From NCBI RefSeq assembly GCF_004116465.1, contig NZ_PDJV01000017.1, positions 1-50,142 on the forward strand: DNA of 50,142 nucleotides, in the 5' to 3' direction. Within the stretch, counting starts at the first letter, position 1; the number at the start of each line of letters is the position of its first letter. This DNA is from Arcobacter sp. F2176 (GTDB lineage Bacteria; Campylobacterota; Campylobacteria; Campylobacterales; Arcobacteraceae). The notes beneath the pieces were generated by a model. The model ran no database searches and was not told the DNA's origin. It worked only from the letters and a program-made list of their open reading frames with translations. Of the stretch, positions 34,446 to 39,152 are shown piece after piece. Made by a program: the position numbers and the translations under genes.

Positions 34446-35684
34446 TCAAAACTCTAAAAGCTGACCAGCTAAGTTTCCACTTGAAAAAGACCACTGGAGG
34501 TTATACCCTCCACAAGGTCCATCTAAATCTACAACTTCCCCACAAAAATATAAACCTTTTATAATCTTGCTTTGCATAGTTTTTGGATTTATCTCTTTTA
34601 AACTTACTCCACCTCTTGTAATCATGGCTTGTTTAAATCCCACATGATCTGTTATGGTTAAAGGAGTTGAGACAAGATATTTGATAAGTTTATCTCTGTT
34701 TTGTCCATTTATATCTTTAAATTTTTTACTAGTATCCACATCACATAAAATACAAAGTTCATTTGCAACAGACTCGGGAACTAATGAAGAAATATTTTCT
34801 AAAATAGTTGAATCATCATTAGCTTTAATCTCGCTATTTATATGTGCCCTAACCTCTTCTTCATTTTTCCCTCTAATCATATTTATTAAAATAGGAACTT
34901 CTCCATACTTTTCTAAATAAGGAGTAATCTCCCGAGAAAAATCTAAAACAACAGGACCTCGAACACCTTTTGAAGTAAAAATTAAATCACCCACAGCTTT
35001 TAGTTTTTTTGCCTTTGGCAAATCTATTCGAAGTTCTGCTTTTGCAATAGTATCAGCCTTACAAGAAGCAACCCATTTTTCTTTTGAAATAAGTGGCAAC
35101 ATAGCTGGATACAAATCAGTAACCTTATGACCTAACTCTTTTGCAAAAATAAAGCCATCACCATTTGCTCCTAGCATTGGATAACCTAATCCTCCAGTTG
35201 CTACAACAACATTAGGACTTAAGAATTTTTCATCTAAAGTTTGAACACCAACAATAGCTTCATCTTCGAATAATAAAGTCTCAGCCTTTGTATTACATCT
35301 AACTTCTACTCCTACCCGAATAAGTTCATCTTCCAAAGCTTTTATAATAGTAGAAGAACTATGAGTAATAGGAAAAACCCTAAACCCATCAGGAATATGA
35401 GTCTCAACACCAATCTCTTTAAAAAAGCCCATCAAGTCTTTATAATCAAAAGCAGTAATAGCTTCCATCATAAAACGACCATTGCGACCAAAAGAGTTCA
35501 TAAAATCAGAATTATCAAGTGTATTTGTAAGGTTACACCGTCCACCACCTGTAGCTTTTAGTTTAGGACCTAGTTTTTCTTGTTGTTCAAGTAATAATAC
35601 GCTCTTGCCATTTCTAGCAGCTTTTATACCAGCAATCATTCCCGCGGCACCAGAACCTATTACTATCAAATCATAAGTTTTCAT
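34446..35684 (-). CDS. BaiN/RdsA-family (HI0933-like) NAD(P)/FAD-dependent oxidoreductase
   Basis: Flavoprotein of 412 aa. N-terminal Rossmann FAD-binding motif DLIVIGSGAAGMIAG (5-19), followed by GGGRCNLTN, a second nucleotide-binding block VVATGGLGYPMLG (about 160-172), and the C-terminal FAD-contact block GLYFCGEVVDLDGPCGGYNLQW. The family includes the bile-acid reductase BaiN and YhiN proteins of unknown role; the substrate here is unknown. No operon partner. Confidence 0.88.
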   Translation of the reverse strand: MKTYDLIVIGSGAAGMIAGIKAARNGKSVLLLEQQEKLGPKLKATGGGRCNLTNTLDNSDFMNSFGRNGRFMMEAITAFDYKDLMGFFKEIGVETHIPDGFRVFPITHSSSTIIKALEDELIRVGVEVRCNTKAETLLFEDEAIVGVQTLDEKFLSPNVVVATGGLGYPMLGANGDGFIFAKELGHKVTDLYPAMLPLISKEKWVASCKADTIAKAELRIDLPKAKKLKAVGDLIFTSKGVRGPVVLDFSREITPYLEKYGEVPILINMIRGKNEEEVRAHINSEIKANDDSTILENISSLVPESVANELCILCDVDTSKKFKDINGQNRDKLIKYLVSTPLTITDHVGFKQAMITRGGVSLKEINPKTMQSKIIKGLYFCGEVVDLDGPCGGYNLQWSFSSGNLAGQLLEF

Positions 35685-35782: not shown

Positions 35783-37615
35783 TTACATAAAATCAAGTAA
35801 AGTACTTTGTTTGTTTCTTTCTTTAATTTCATTATCAACAACTAACTCTTTTTCTATATCCAAATTTATTTCTATTTTATCTATAAACAATTTTTGTTTT
35901 AAGAAATCAATTATTAAATTAGTATTCCTTGCTAATTCTGATGTTTTTCTATTTTTTAAATCTAAACTGAGTTCATCACTTTCTAAAATTGATATTGATT
36001 GAATAAACAATTGTAGCACTTTTTTTTCATTCAATAAAACATCTAATATTTTTTTACAATATTTATCAGTTTGCTTTTTAATTGTAAAATCTGGTAATTT
36101 TGATGTTGTTATTATATACCTAGATATCATAAGAATATGAAACCTATATTTTTTATATTTACTATTAATTTTGTGAGTAAGAAATAAACTTTCTAAAATT
36201 GAATATGCCAAACCACTTAAATAATAAGGGAATGATTCATGATTTAAGTTAAAAATAGAGTCTCCTAAGTTTTGTAACAATTTCCCATGATGTCCAGATG
36301 CATTATGAGGTAAATTAAGAAACATTGAAGAATATGCTTTTACTTGGTGCTCAATATTTATTATCTTATGCAAACTATAATCATTTTGCTTATATTGATT
36401 TGTTCTTCTCTCATAATATAATTCTATTCCATTAGTATCATAACATGCAATATAAAATTCTTCTAATGTTCTTTGAAAATTAGTTAATGCCTCTAATTCT
36501 TGCTTAGTTACTGCTGTTTGATTATTTGTAGCTCTAGTAATATCACTTTTTATATTAATATCTTTAGTTTCAATTATCTTTACTGGTATTTGTAAGGAAT
36601 TTATACCTTTTACATCTTTATTTTCATACAAAACATGACTTGTCTGACAACCATTTACTATTTGATAGTTTTCTAGAGTAAAAGAATCGCCAGCACTGAT
36701 TACTTTTTCAGCAACAATTGTAATTCCATTATTTAGAATACTAAAGTATTCAAACCTATTTTCTTTTATTGTATCATCAATATCTTTATTTACAATATTA
36801 TTAGAAGTTTCAAGATAATCACGAATATTATCATCAAAAACAGACTTTATATTACCATTTTCATCAAGAATAATTTTTCTAAATTCTGAAAATGGTAATA
36901 CTCCTGAATATGCAGATTCAACATTATCTATTTTAGGTAATGAAACTTTCTTTTCAAATATTATATTTGTTTTTACAATTTCTTTAGATTTTCTATATAA
37001 ATGCTGAACTTCTTTTGAACCACATGGATAAAAATCTACAATATCCTCACAAAACATCGATAAGTTTTGTAATTCTGATTTACCATCTTCAATAATACTA
37101 GTTAAATTTGCATCATCATTCCAAATTCCAGTATTTAAGAAATACAACTTACAATAAGGAGTATGCCTTTTCATAGAATCTACATTAGCATATATAAATT
37201 CTTTCATTTCAACAAAATTTTTCATACTATCAGTTGAAAATAAATTACCTTTTTCCATAAAGAATTTTTTGCTCCATGTAAAAAAAGCACCTAATTCTTC
37301 ACCACTAAACTTATCCGAAGTTTTTGTTTGTATTAATATAAATTTAACATCTAAGTAACCTGTAGTATCAATTAAATCTTTAATTTCTTGAACCGATGTG
37401 CAGAACTTTCCATTAACAATTATACCAATTCCATCAATACCTTGTGTGGCTTTTCCAGTATGTACATCAGAAAAATCAAACGACATAGAATTATATTCAT
37501 TATATACTACAAGAAAATTACAAAGATGTTCAAATTTTGCTGTAATATCATATGTGTCTAAATTATTTTGAATACTAAACTTATTTAAAAATGAACTAAT
37601 AATTGGATTATTCAT
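35783..37615 (-). CDS. AIPR-family protein (abortive infection phage resistance) with Mrr-like nuclease N-terminus
   Basis: 610 aa. The N-terminal part has a putative PD-(D/E)xK nuclease core: Asp61 in GIDGIGI, then the strand FILIQTK with Gln96 and Lys98 as a QxK variant. The AIPR domain follows with its recurring blocks FEYFSILNNGITIVA (288-302), YQIVNGCQTSHVL (317-329), RATNNQTAVTKQELEAL (361-377) and LYYERRTNQY (399-408). Members are linked to phage resistance, mostly by association. Single gene, SD AAGGA, TATAAT at 37637-37642, no methylase or toxin partner. Lies between a flavoprotein gene and mnmE, bounded by a 121-bp palindrome. Confidence 0.8.
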   Translation of the reverse strand: MNNPIISSFLNKFSIQNNLDTYDITAKFEHLCNFLVVYNEYNSMSFDFSDVHTGKATQGIDGIGIIVNGKFCTSVQEIKDLIDTTGYLDVKFILIQTKTSDKFSGEELGAFFTWSKKFFMEKGNLFSTDSMKNFVEMKEFIYANVDSMKRHTPYCKLYFLNTGIWNDDANLTSIIEDGKSELQNLSMFCEDIVDFYPCGSKEVQHLYRKSKEIVKTNIIFEKKVSLPKIDNVESAYSGVLPFSEFRKIILDENGNIKSVFDDNIRDYLETSNNIVNKDIDDTIKENRFEYFSILNNGITIVAEKVISAGDSFTLENYQIVNGCQTSHVLYENKDVKGINSLQIPVKIIETKDINIKSDITRATNNQTAVTKQELEALTNFQRTLEEFYIACYDTNGIELYYERRTNQYKQNDYSLHKIINIEHQVKAYSSMFLNLPHNASGHHGKLLQNLGDSIFNLNHESFPYYLSGLAYSILESLFLTHKINSKYKKYRFHILMISRYIITTSKLPDFTIKKQTDKYCKKILDVLLNEKKVLQLFIQSISILESDELSLDLKNRKTSELARNTNLIIDFLKQKLFIDKIEINLDIEKELVVDNEIKERNKQSTLLDFM

Positions 37616-37689: not shown

Positions 37690-37810
37690 GAGGTATAGAT
37701 TTTTAGTGCAATTCAAGGCAGAGTAATTTTTTTACGATTGAGCGTACAACTAGTACGTGATTGAGTAAAAAAATTACTCTAACGCAGAAGTGTGCAAAAA
37801 GCTATACCTC
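37690..37810. repeat. 121-bp palindromic element between mnmE and the AIPR gene
   Basis: The element is symmetric about C37750. Perfectly paired parts are the outer 9-bp arms (37690-37698 with 37802-37810), 16-bp arms (37720-37735 with 37765-37780) and the inner CGTAC/GTACG (37743-37747 with 37753-37757). GATTGAG occurs as a direct repeat (37736-37742 and 37759-37765) inside the palindrome. The right end overlaps the mnmE stop codon. It could be a REP/MITE-like dispersed element and also act as a terminator for mnmE. Confidence 0.8.
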
Positions 37811-39152
37811 ACTTACCTAAGCAGAAAGCTCCGAACATCACATCCAACATCTGGTCATTTTCATATGGTCTTGTTATCAATGAAATATTCTCAATAGCTT
37901 CATGTATATTGTGAGCAAAAAATTCTAACTCACCAGTCATCAAGGGAGTTTTTGCTTCTTGTACATGGTATAAAGTTTGCTCTACTGCATCTACTTGTCT
38001 TTTTGAGATCAAAGTCATATTATCATCATGGGAATTGTTATCTAAAATTGTTTCTATTTTTTTTATTAATGTACTAATACTGTTTTTTGTACTTAATTCT
38101 ATGTATTCATTTTTTAATTGTGTTTTATCAAATTTTGATTCTAAATCAATTTTATTTAATACTACTATTTTTTCTTTATTTTCTATCTCATCTAAAATAT
38201 TTAAAATCTTTTTATCTTCATCATCACAAACTTTTGAATTATCAAATAATGAAATAATGATATCTGCTTCATTTACAGCACTTAAAGACTTCTCAATTCC
38301 AATTCGCTCAATAGTATCACTAGCTTCTCTAATACCTGCTGTATCAACTATCTTGATAATATGCGTACCAATCTTAACAGACTCTTCTATTGTATCTCTG
38401 GTTGTTCCTGCTATGTCACTTATGATTGCTCTATCAAAATTTAAAAGTTTATTTAAAAGCGAAGATTTTCCAACATTTGGTTTTCCTATAATTGCTACTT
38501 TGAAACCTTCGATTAGACCTTCTCTTCTTTTACTTGATTCTAATGTATTTGATAATTTAACTACTATTTTTTCTATTTTCTTTTCTATTTGCTCAAAAAT
38601 ATCAGCTGGCAAATCATCTTCAGCATAATCAATACTAACTTCAGTGTAAGCTAACATAAAAAGTAGATCTTCTCTAATATCATTTACGAAATTAGTTAGT
38701 TCACCTTTTAGTTGTCGTGCTAATAATTTAACAGCATCTTCACTTCTAGCTTCTATAAGTTTTGCTATTGCTTCTGCTTTTGAAAGGTCAATTTTATTAT
38801 TTAAAAAAGCTCTTTTTGAAAATTCACCTGGATTTGCTAATCTTGCACCTAATTTTATAAGTTCATTTAAAATTATGTTTGAAATAGCGATTCCACCATG
38901 ACATTGAAACTCAACAATATCTTCGCCTGTAAAAGAGTTTGGATTTTTAAAATAAATTAAAAGTGCTTCATCTATAATTTCATCTTCACTATTGTATATA
39001 CTAGATAGGGTTGCTAATCTTGGATTTAAATTAGTTCTTTTTGAAAGAGTTAAGGCAAGTGGCAACGAATCTTTACCACTTAATCTTATAATTGAGATTG
39101 AGCCAATTCCATTGGCTGTTGCAATTGCTGCAATTGTATCAAATGAGTCCAT
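37809..39152 (-). CDS. mnmE: tRNA modification GTPase MnmE (TrmE)
   Basis: With MnmG it makes carboxymethylaminomethyl uridine at the wobble position of several tRNAs. 447 aa. N-terminal folate-binding domain (DTIAAIATANGIGSISIIRLSG start and GGIAISNIILNELIKLGARLANPGEFSKRAFLNNKIDL region), helical domain, and an inserted G domain with G1 GKPNVGKSS (about 218-226), G2 and G3 in DIAGTTRDT and DTAGI, and G4 NKID. The C-terminal FGAFCLGK has the catalytic Cys. It starts 3 bp after jag. Confidence 0.96.
   Translation of the reverse strand: MDSFDTIAAIATANGIGSISIIRLSGKDSLPLALTLSKRTNLNPRLATLSSIYNSEDEIIDEALLIYFKNPNSFTGEDIVEFQCHGGIAISNIILNELIKLGARLANPGEFSKRAFLNNKIDLSKAEAIAKLIEARSEDAVKLLARQLKGELTNFVNDIREDLLFMLAYTEVSIDYAEDDLPADIFEQIEKKIEKIVVKLSNTLESSKRREGLIEGFKVAIIGKPNVGKSSLLNKLLNFDRAIISDIAGTTRDTIEESVKIGTHIIKIVDTAGIREASDTIERIGIEKSLSAVNEADIIISLFDNSKVCDDEDKKILNILDEIENKEKIVVLNKIDLESKFDKTQLKNEYIELSTKNSISTLIKKIETILDNNSHDDNMTLISKRQVDAVEQTLYHVQEAKTPLMTGELEFFAHNIHEAIENISLITRPYENDQMLDVMFGAFCLGK

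Follow-up and report, generated by a model that had tools for sequence, protein, structure and literature searches.

The 3' end of mnmE in Arcobacter sp. F2176 raises the question of what a long near-palindrome is, and what it does, at the junction between a core gene and an abortive-infection gene in the window (the whole 50,142-nt stretch of DNA that was analyzed). An earlier note on this stretch had described a 121-bp dyad with three paired blocks that overlaps the mnmE stop codon, carries a GATTGAG direct repeat and is far longer than a terminator, and this description holds: the outer arms pair at 14 of 15 positions, the 16-bp inner arms are perfect, the stop codon (a TGA on the minus strand at 37809-37811) shares 2 nt with the outer arm, and the two GATTGAG copies (37736-37742 and 37759-37765) face each other across a conserved internal loop (Table 1). 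Folded as DNA, the hairpin reaches -29.2 kcal/mol, compared with -8.8 +/- 2.3 kcal/mol for 200 shuffled sequences, none of which was as stable (z = -8.8). On the plus strand, antisense to mnmE, internal loop 2 can, to judge from its letters, form two tandem G.A pairs with one or two pairs between them. The TA dinucleotide stands directly at one end only of the window copy.

Table 1. Coordinates of the hairpin element and its neighboring genes in the window
Feature	Position	Strand	Remarks
HI0933-like oxidoreductase	34446..35684	-	directly follows mnmE and the element in G001 and G002
AIPR / AbiU abortive-infection gene	35783..37615	-	PADLOC AbiU, E 5e-102; between the element and the HI0933-like gene
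ERIC-type hairpin element	37690..37810	-	direction of mnmE, CTGCGTT side first; model R1, 122.1 bits, E 5e-24
Outer helix, one arm (GAGGTATAGATTTTT)	37690..37704		pairs with 37796-37810, 14/15
Internal loop 1, GCCTTGAA side on minus (TTCAAGGC on plus), conserved	37712..37719	-	alignment
Inner helix, one arm (AGAGTAATTTTTTTAC)	37720..37735		16 bp, perfect; dyad analysis
Internal loop 2, GATTGAG side	37736..37742	+	sequence reading
Apical hairpin CGTAC-AACTA-GTACG	37743..37757		37743-37747 pairs with 37753-37757; fold; 99.8% of cells paired over 97 copies
Internal loop 2, TGATTGA side	37758..37764	+	sequence reading
Inner helix, other arm	37765..37780		16 bp, perfect; dyad analysis
Internal loop 1, CTGCGTT side on minus (AACGCAG on plus), conserved	37781..37787	-	alignment
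Outer helix, other arm (AAAAAGCTATACCTC)	37796..37810		2-nt overlap with the mnmE stop codon
mnmE, upstream core gene	37809..39152	-	3' copy in G000 (this genome), G001, G002, G011 and G020

The element is one of many. A BLAST search with a 141-bp query recovered three diverged relatives in the same genome, lying 3' of dxs, htpG and an HI0933-like gene, and more in related genomes; the arms of these relatives differ in letters yet remain complementary, the internal loops are constant (CTGCGTT / GCCTTGA and ACTCA-TCA / GCTCC), and nearly every helix pair covaries. Across 18 copies aligned with MAFFT, 33 pairs of the 40-pair structure change on both sides, and covariation is 0.421 compared with 0.149 after shuffling. 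The covariance model R1, which was trained on this 18-copy set of Campylobacterota copies only, finds 22 full-length copies in the Arcobacter sp. F2176 genome and, among relatives, copies in 31 of 60 genomes, with a range of 0 to 42 per genome and hundreds in total. The earlier note had suggested that AACGCAG-type repeats may be dispersed through genomes of this phylum and had named a single copy as the alternative; such repeats are indeed dispersed through this genome and the phylum, and their AAGGC...AACGCAG motif is the conserved loop pair. With 97 distinct copies, in an alignment that was fitted to the model and so favors the structure, covariation is 0.566 compared with 0.145 shuffled, and 39 of the 40 pairs change on both sides, while the Campylobacterota copies are mostly only ~50-65% alike. 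A second covariance model, R2, built from mixed phyla, hits 75 of the 298 Campylobacterota genomes. A search of Rfam gave no family at the gathering score and nothing relevant at lax thresholds, which rules out a known RNA family, and a plasmid-borne element is ruled out by the window copy having no plasmid match.

When the loop pattern was scanned over 84,980 species genomes, the matches lay mostly in Enterobacterales, which identifies the conserved core as that of ERIC. Published accounts place the ERIC family in Enterobacteriaceae and Vibrionaceae (PMC10969869) and describe it as stem-loops (PMC2267715) with TIRs, a TSD and TA at the termini (PMC2229807), and the typing primers quoted for it are ERIC1R, ATGTAAGCTCCTGGGGATTCAC, and ERIC2, AAGTAAGTGACTGGGGTGAGCG (PMC7075591). 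The E. coli match of the mixed-phyla model contains the ERIC1R primer exactly, and R1, with no enterobacterial sequence in its training, gave full-length matches to ~50 enterobacterial copies (from Salmonella, Citrobacter and Rahnella, among others) with scores in Enterobacterales of up to 64.8 bits, although the E. coli ERIC at L340 was not found by R1 at E 0.001. R1 also matches Lysobacterales, Deltaproteobacteria, Clostridia, Selenomonadales, Bacteroidales, Scalindua and Alicyclobacillus; similar elements occur in Desulfobacterota, Bacteroidota, Chlorobi, Planctomycetes, Firmicutes and other Gammaproteobacteria, several matching MAGs outside Enterobacterales have hits on more than one contig each, and covariation across phyla under R2 is 0.770 compared with 0.172 shuffled. 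Identity over the full length of ERIC1R and ERIC2 is absent from the copies of this genome, which match on average 11-12 of 22 bases, mostly in the 5' halves.

The assignment of the window element to the ERIC/IRU kind, as a Campylobacterota branch, is well supported. The element has the imperfect palindrome of ~127 bp in one long stem-loop that is a feature of ERIC/IRU (~120-130 bp in ERIC/IRU/RU-1 at large), it has several dispersed intergenic copies (22 in this genome and up to 42 in relatives), the loops CTGCGTT, TCAC-TACT, GTA-GCTCC and GCCTTG are common to both, and TA at both ends is seen here in the one fresh copy that is described below. What differs is the host phylum, the arm sequences, which are totally unlike, and the age of the Campylobacterota copies, which are old, diverged and kept at orthologous core genes. 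Copies in Campylobacterota and other phyla lie outside the published range of Enterobacteriaceae and Vibrionaceae, though that range is no structural feature, and our literature search, mainly of freely accessible papers, turned up no account of ERIC beyond the Gammaproteobacteria.

A long frame lies upstream of 169 copies; in about 150 of these its stop codon falls from -10 to +13 relative to the start of the model, with copy and gene in the same orientation, and TGA stops are rare before copies (3/153, compared with 30/225 in controls, p 6e-5). Nearly all copies in this genome follow core genes, and the same genes hold copies in several genomes (fabI in 12, nrdB in 10, gyrB and htpG in 7 each), with further orthologous sites across genera at guaB, uvrB, secF, rho, mnmE and others, where mnmE was named from Pfam and the other genes from reading their proteins. 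In Campylobacter-like genomes copies lie ~25 nt after the 3' end of the 23S gene and before the 5S gene, and in G055 a copy directly follows a tRNA in the rRNA spacer. The rRNA-operon copies of Campylobacter-like and other Campylobacterota (L356-L363, L369 and L370) have equal scores in several operons of a single genome. Orientation with replication was rejected as the cause of the fixed direction: in G001, with the origin assumed near 0 (skew agrees only roughly), 19 of 22 copies are co-oriented compared with 164 of 298 genes, but the other three follow the gene and not the fork.

The mismatches within the helices reveal which strand folds. On the gene strand, A.C mismatches outnumber G.T (404 to 96), C.T outnumber A.G (313 to 73) and C.C outnumber G.G (50 to 3), and this excess means that it is the complementary strand which has tolerated G.T, G.A and G.G. 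In agreement, the strand antisense to the upstream gene is the more stable in 174 of 175 copies with RNA parameters and in 172 of 175 with DNA parameters, and the same is seen in Enterobacterales (49/50 RNA, 48/50 DNA), where many copies are also at stop codons, and in the remaining phyla (19/23 RNA, 21/23 DNA). These data support a fold of the antisense strand at gene 3' ends that is kept by selection.

Regarding the evolution of the element, copies at the same gene in congeners have helices that are either near-identical or strongly changed, with 225 compensated and 278 broken pairs. In G001 the copies at mnmE and nrdB have inner hairpins that are 89% alike and outer arms that are unrelated, which shows that hairpin modules, inner and outer, are at times swapped. 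Mobility, which the earlier note had suspected, is seen in one recent copying event to a TA site: on contig C2 of this genome, at ~170.6-172.4 kb, the copies behind rho and behind the next, hipA-like gene (L057 and L058) are identical at 132 of 137 positions; each has TA at its two ends, and their flanks are unrelated. In G020 the order is rho, element, hipA-like gene. The transfer of the whole hairpin between unrelated flanks rules out that the arms are made anew from the target at each insertion. The earlier note had also proposed a search for a TnpA-REP transposase, and the link is not supported: Y1 transposases are absent from four genomes with many copies (G000, G018, G027 and G010), while G023, with 17 matches to IS200-like Y1 transposases, the most among the genomes compared, has no ERIC-like copy, a distribution on which TnpA-REP was rejected. 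The REP/BIME/REPIN elements that go with TnpA-REP are likewise dispersed intergenic hairpins, but the present element is much longer, has conserved loops unlike those of REPs and has no link to Y1. We know of no loops that Correia/NEMIS and other MITEs have in common with it. Those families resemble it in size (~100-150 bp), in TA at the ends and in hairpin transcripts of their own (PMC2229807), and differ in that the literature searched describes no long-term covariation at fixed genes for them.

The DNA behind the element is where the congeners diverge. The AIPR gene is not at this locus in G001 and G002; it is inserted at the foot of the element. The earlier note had reasoned that the element, by bordering the AIPR gene, might have helped it in, and the border does coincide with the insertion, but the element predates this insertion and persists at orthologous genes in different genera, so it was not brought in with the AIPR gene. 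In general, the downstream neighbor of a copy differs in 42 of 49 congener comparisons while the upstream gene and the element are conserved, whereas for genes without an element the 3' neighbor differs in 40 of 279 and is kept in 239 (Fisher p 6e-23), although genes were called in a simpler way for the 42/49 count than for the 279 comparisons, which come from three homologous regions. Within those same three regions the genes with an element keep their 3' neighbor in 4 of 12 cases (p 9e-5), and genes without an element but with a gap of at least 60 nt keep it in 47 of 53. At the level of DNA, 20 of 46 pairs have less than 150 bp alignable in the 1.4 kb downstream, and the 1.2 kb upstream always aligns; at mnmE, htpG, porB, an HD-domain gene, gyrB and a metH-like gene homology breaks off where the element has its right foot, and at mfs and secF it continues beyond. 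The association of the elements with variable junctions is strong, and the element is supported as a marker of such junctions by measurements in one genus; the hypervariability could reflect tolerance or target preference and not an effect of the element.

Behind other copies lie, among others, KAP NTPases (PDC-S20), PDC-M62A, a TIR effector (PDC-S35), an OLD-like ATPase, a type I methylase, putAbiC, HipA and a HigB-like toxin. PADLOC has matches at E 1e-15 for at least 9 of the 46 proteins encoded downstream, compared with at most ~3 of 71 random G001 proteins (p 0.01; counts taken from summary tables), and in other genera the enrichment is weaker, with defense genes mixed with housekeeping genes. 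The literature search, again mainly of freely accessible papers, found no report linking ERIC to defense genes, and it is in the Campylobacterota copies only that the link to hypervariable junctions and defense genes was tested.

We infer a mobile-element origin and a present role as the 3' boundary of the gene, and we put the probability that the window copy belongs to a Campylobacterota branch of ERIC/IRU-kind miniature hairpins, once mobile with TA as target and now kept as a gene boundary, at roughly 0.55. The element would have spread at first as a TA-targeting miniature mobile element and would later have been retained as the 3' boundary of a core gene. Its hairpin would most likely form on the antisense strand, either in RNA, when transcription runs in from the unstable DNA behind the gene, or in single-stranded DNA, and could thereby shield the core gene, which might let new genes settle directly behind it. 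The loop sequences, being conserved across phyla, suggest a bound protein. The patchy copy number, from none to 42 per genome, would be odd for an essential function and counts against a boundary role.

That patchiness would be expected of a purely selfish MITE, whose structure would be needed only for mobilization by a TA-targeting transposase, whose copies at stop codons would be the survivors of insertion and whose variable downstream DNA would mark safe sites. The recent copy with TA at both ends and the depletion of TGA, as expected if insertion at TA supplies or uses the stop, agree with this, as does the listing of ERIC as TA-flanked with a target duplication (PMC2229807). However, the same core genes hold copies across genera, the balance of compensated and broken pairs in congener orthologues is far from neutral decay, and the fixed orientation is left unexplained, so a selfish element is possible but in our estimate doubtful. 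It is very unlikely that the hairpin serves as a terminator or mRNA 3'-end stabilizer on the transcript of the gene itself. Its strength, its place directly 3' of genes and its sense orientation would suit such a role, and in Yersinia ERIC at 3' ends alters mRNA levels via an RNase E site (PMC10969869), but of the two strands the sense strand folds less well, and G.U pairs are avoided on it. A T-rich run after the hairpin is no more frequent than background (6/174 with at least 6 T in 8, against 5.5%), and no general U-tract was found on either strand, so simple intrinsic termination does not explain the element and an intrinsic terminator is ruled out.

An attC-like site, in which single-stranded antisense DNA would fold and a recombinase would insert genes beside it, would account for the antisense fold, for the position at gene 3' ends in the orientation of the gene, for variable arms around conserved loops and for the accessory and defense genes inserted at the foot. 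We take the folded antisense strand, structure kept over sequence, position directly 3' of genes and nearby accessory genes to be what integron attC sites and the element have in common. The conserved letters of attC are at its ends, whereas those of the element are inside the hairpin, in the internal loops; there are no cassette arrays, and the inserted genes usually have no copy of their own, as with the AIPR gene of the window, nearly all copies in this genome being behind core genes. A cassette model, in which each inserted gene would bring its own copy, was not borne out, and no recombinase was identified in the searches made. We consider an attC-like site quite unlikely, and we favor a boundary hairpin over it and over a selfish element. 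The wider claim, that ERIC elements are bacteria-wide folded-strand sites at gene 3' ends which capture accessory genes, above all single-gene defense systems, as an integron-like platform without arrays, strikes us as unlikely.

ERIC has been known for more than 30 years without an agreed function or mobilizing enzyme. The same loops and strong covariation across phyla allow its structure to be defined, its folded strand to be shown and a tie to gene 3' ends to be drawn, and they offer a testable link between ERIC-type elements and the places where accessory and defense genes settle. For ERIC-PCR typing of Arcobacter, the present results mean that real ERIC-like elements are there, which the primers match only in part. 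In several Enterobacterales, including Pantoea and Rouxiella, tandem ERIC copies lie ~120-260 bp apart (L237, L283 and L321). Finally, ten viral contigs (L346-L355) hold the ERIC core pattern and may be prophage edges.
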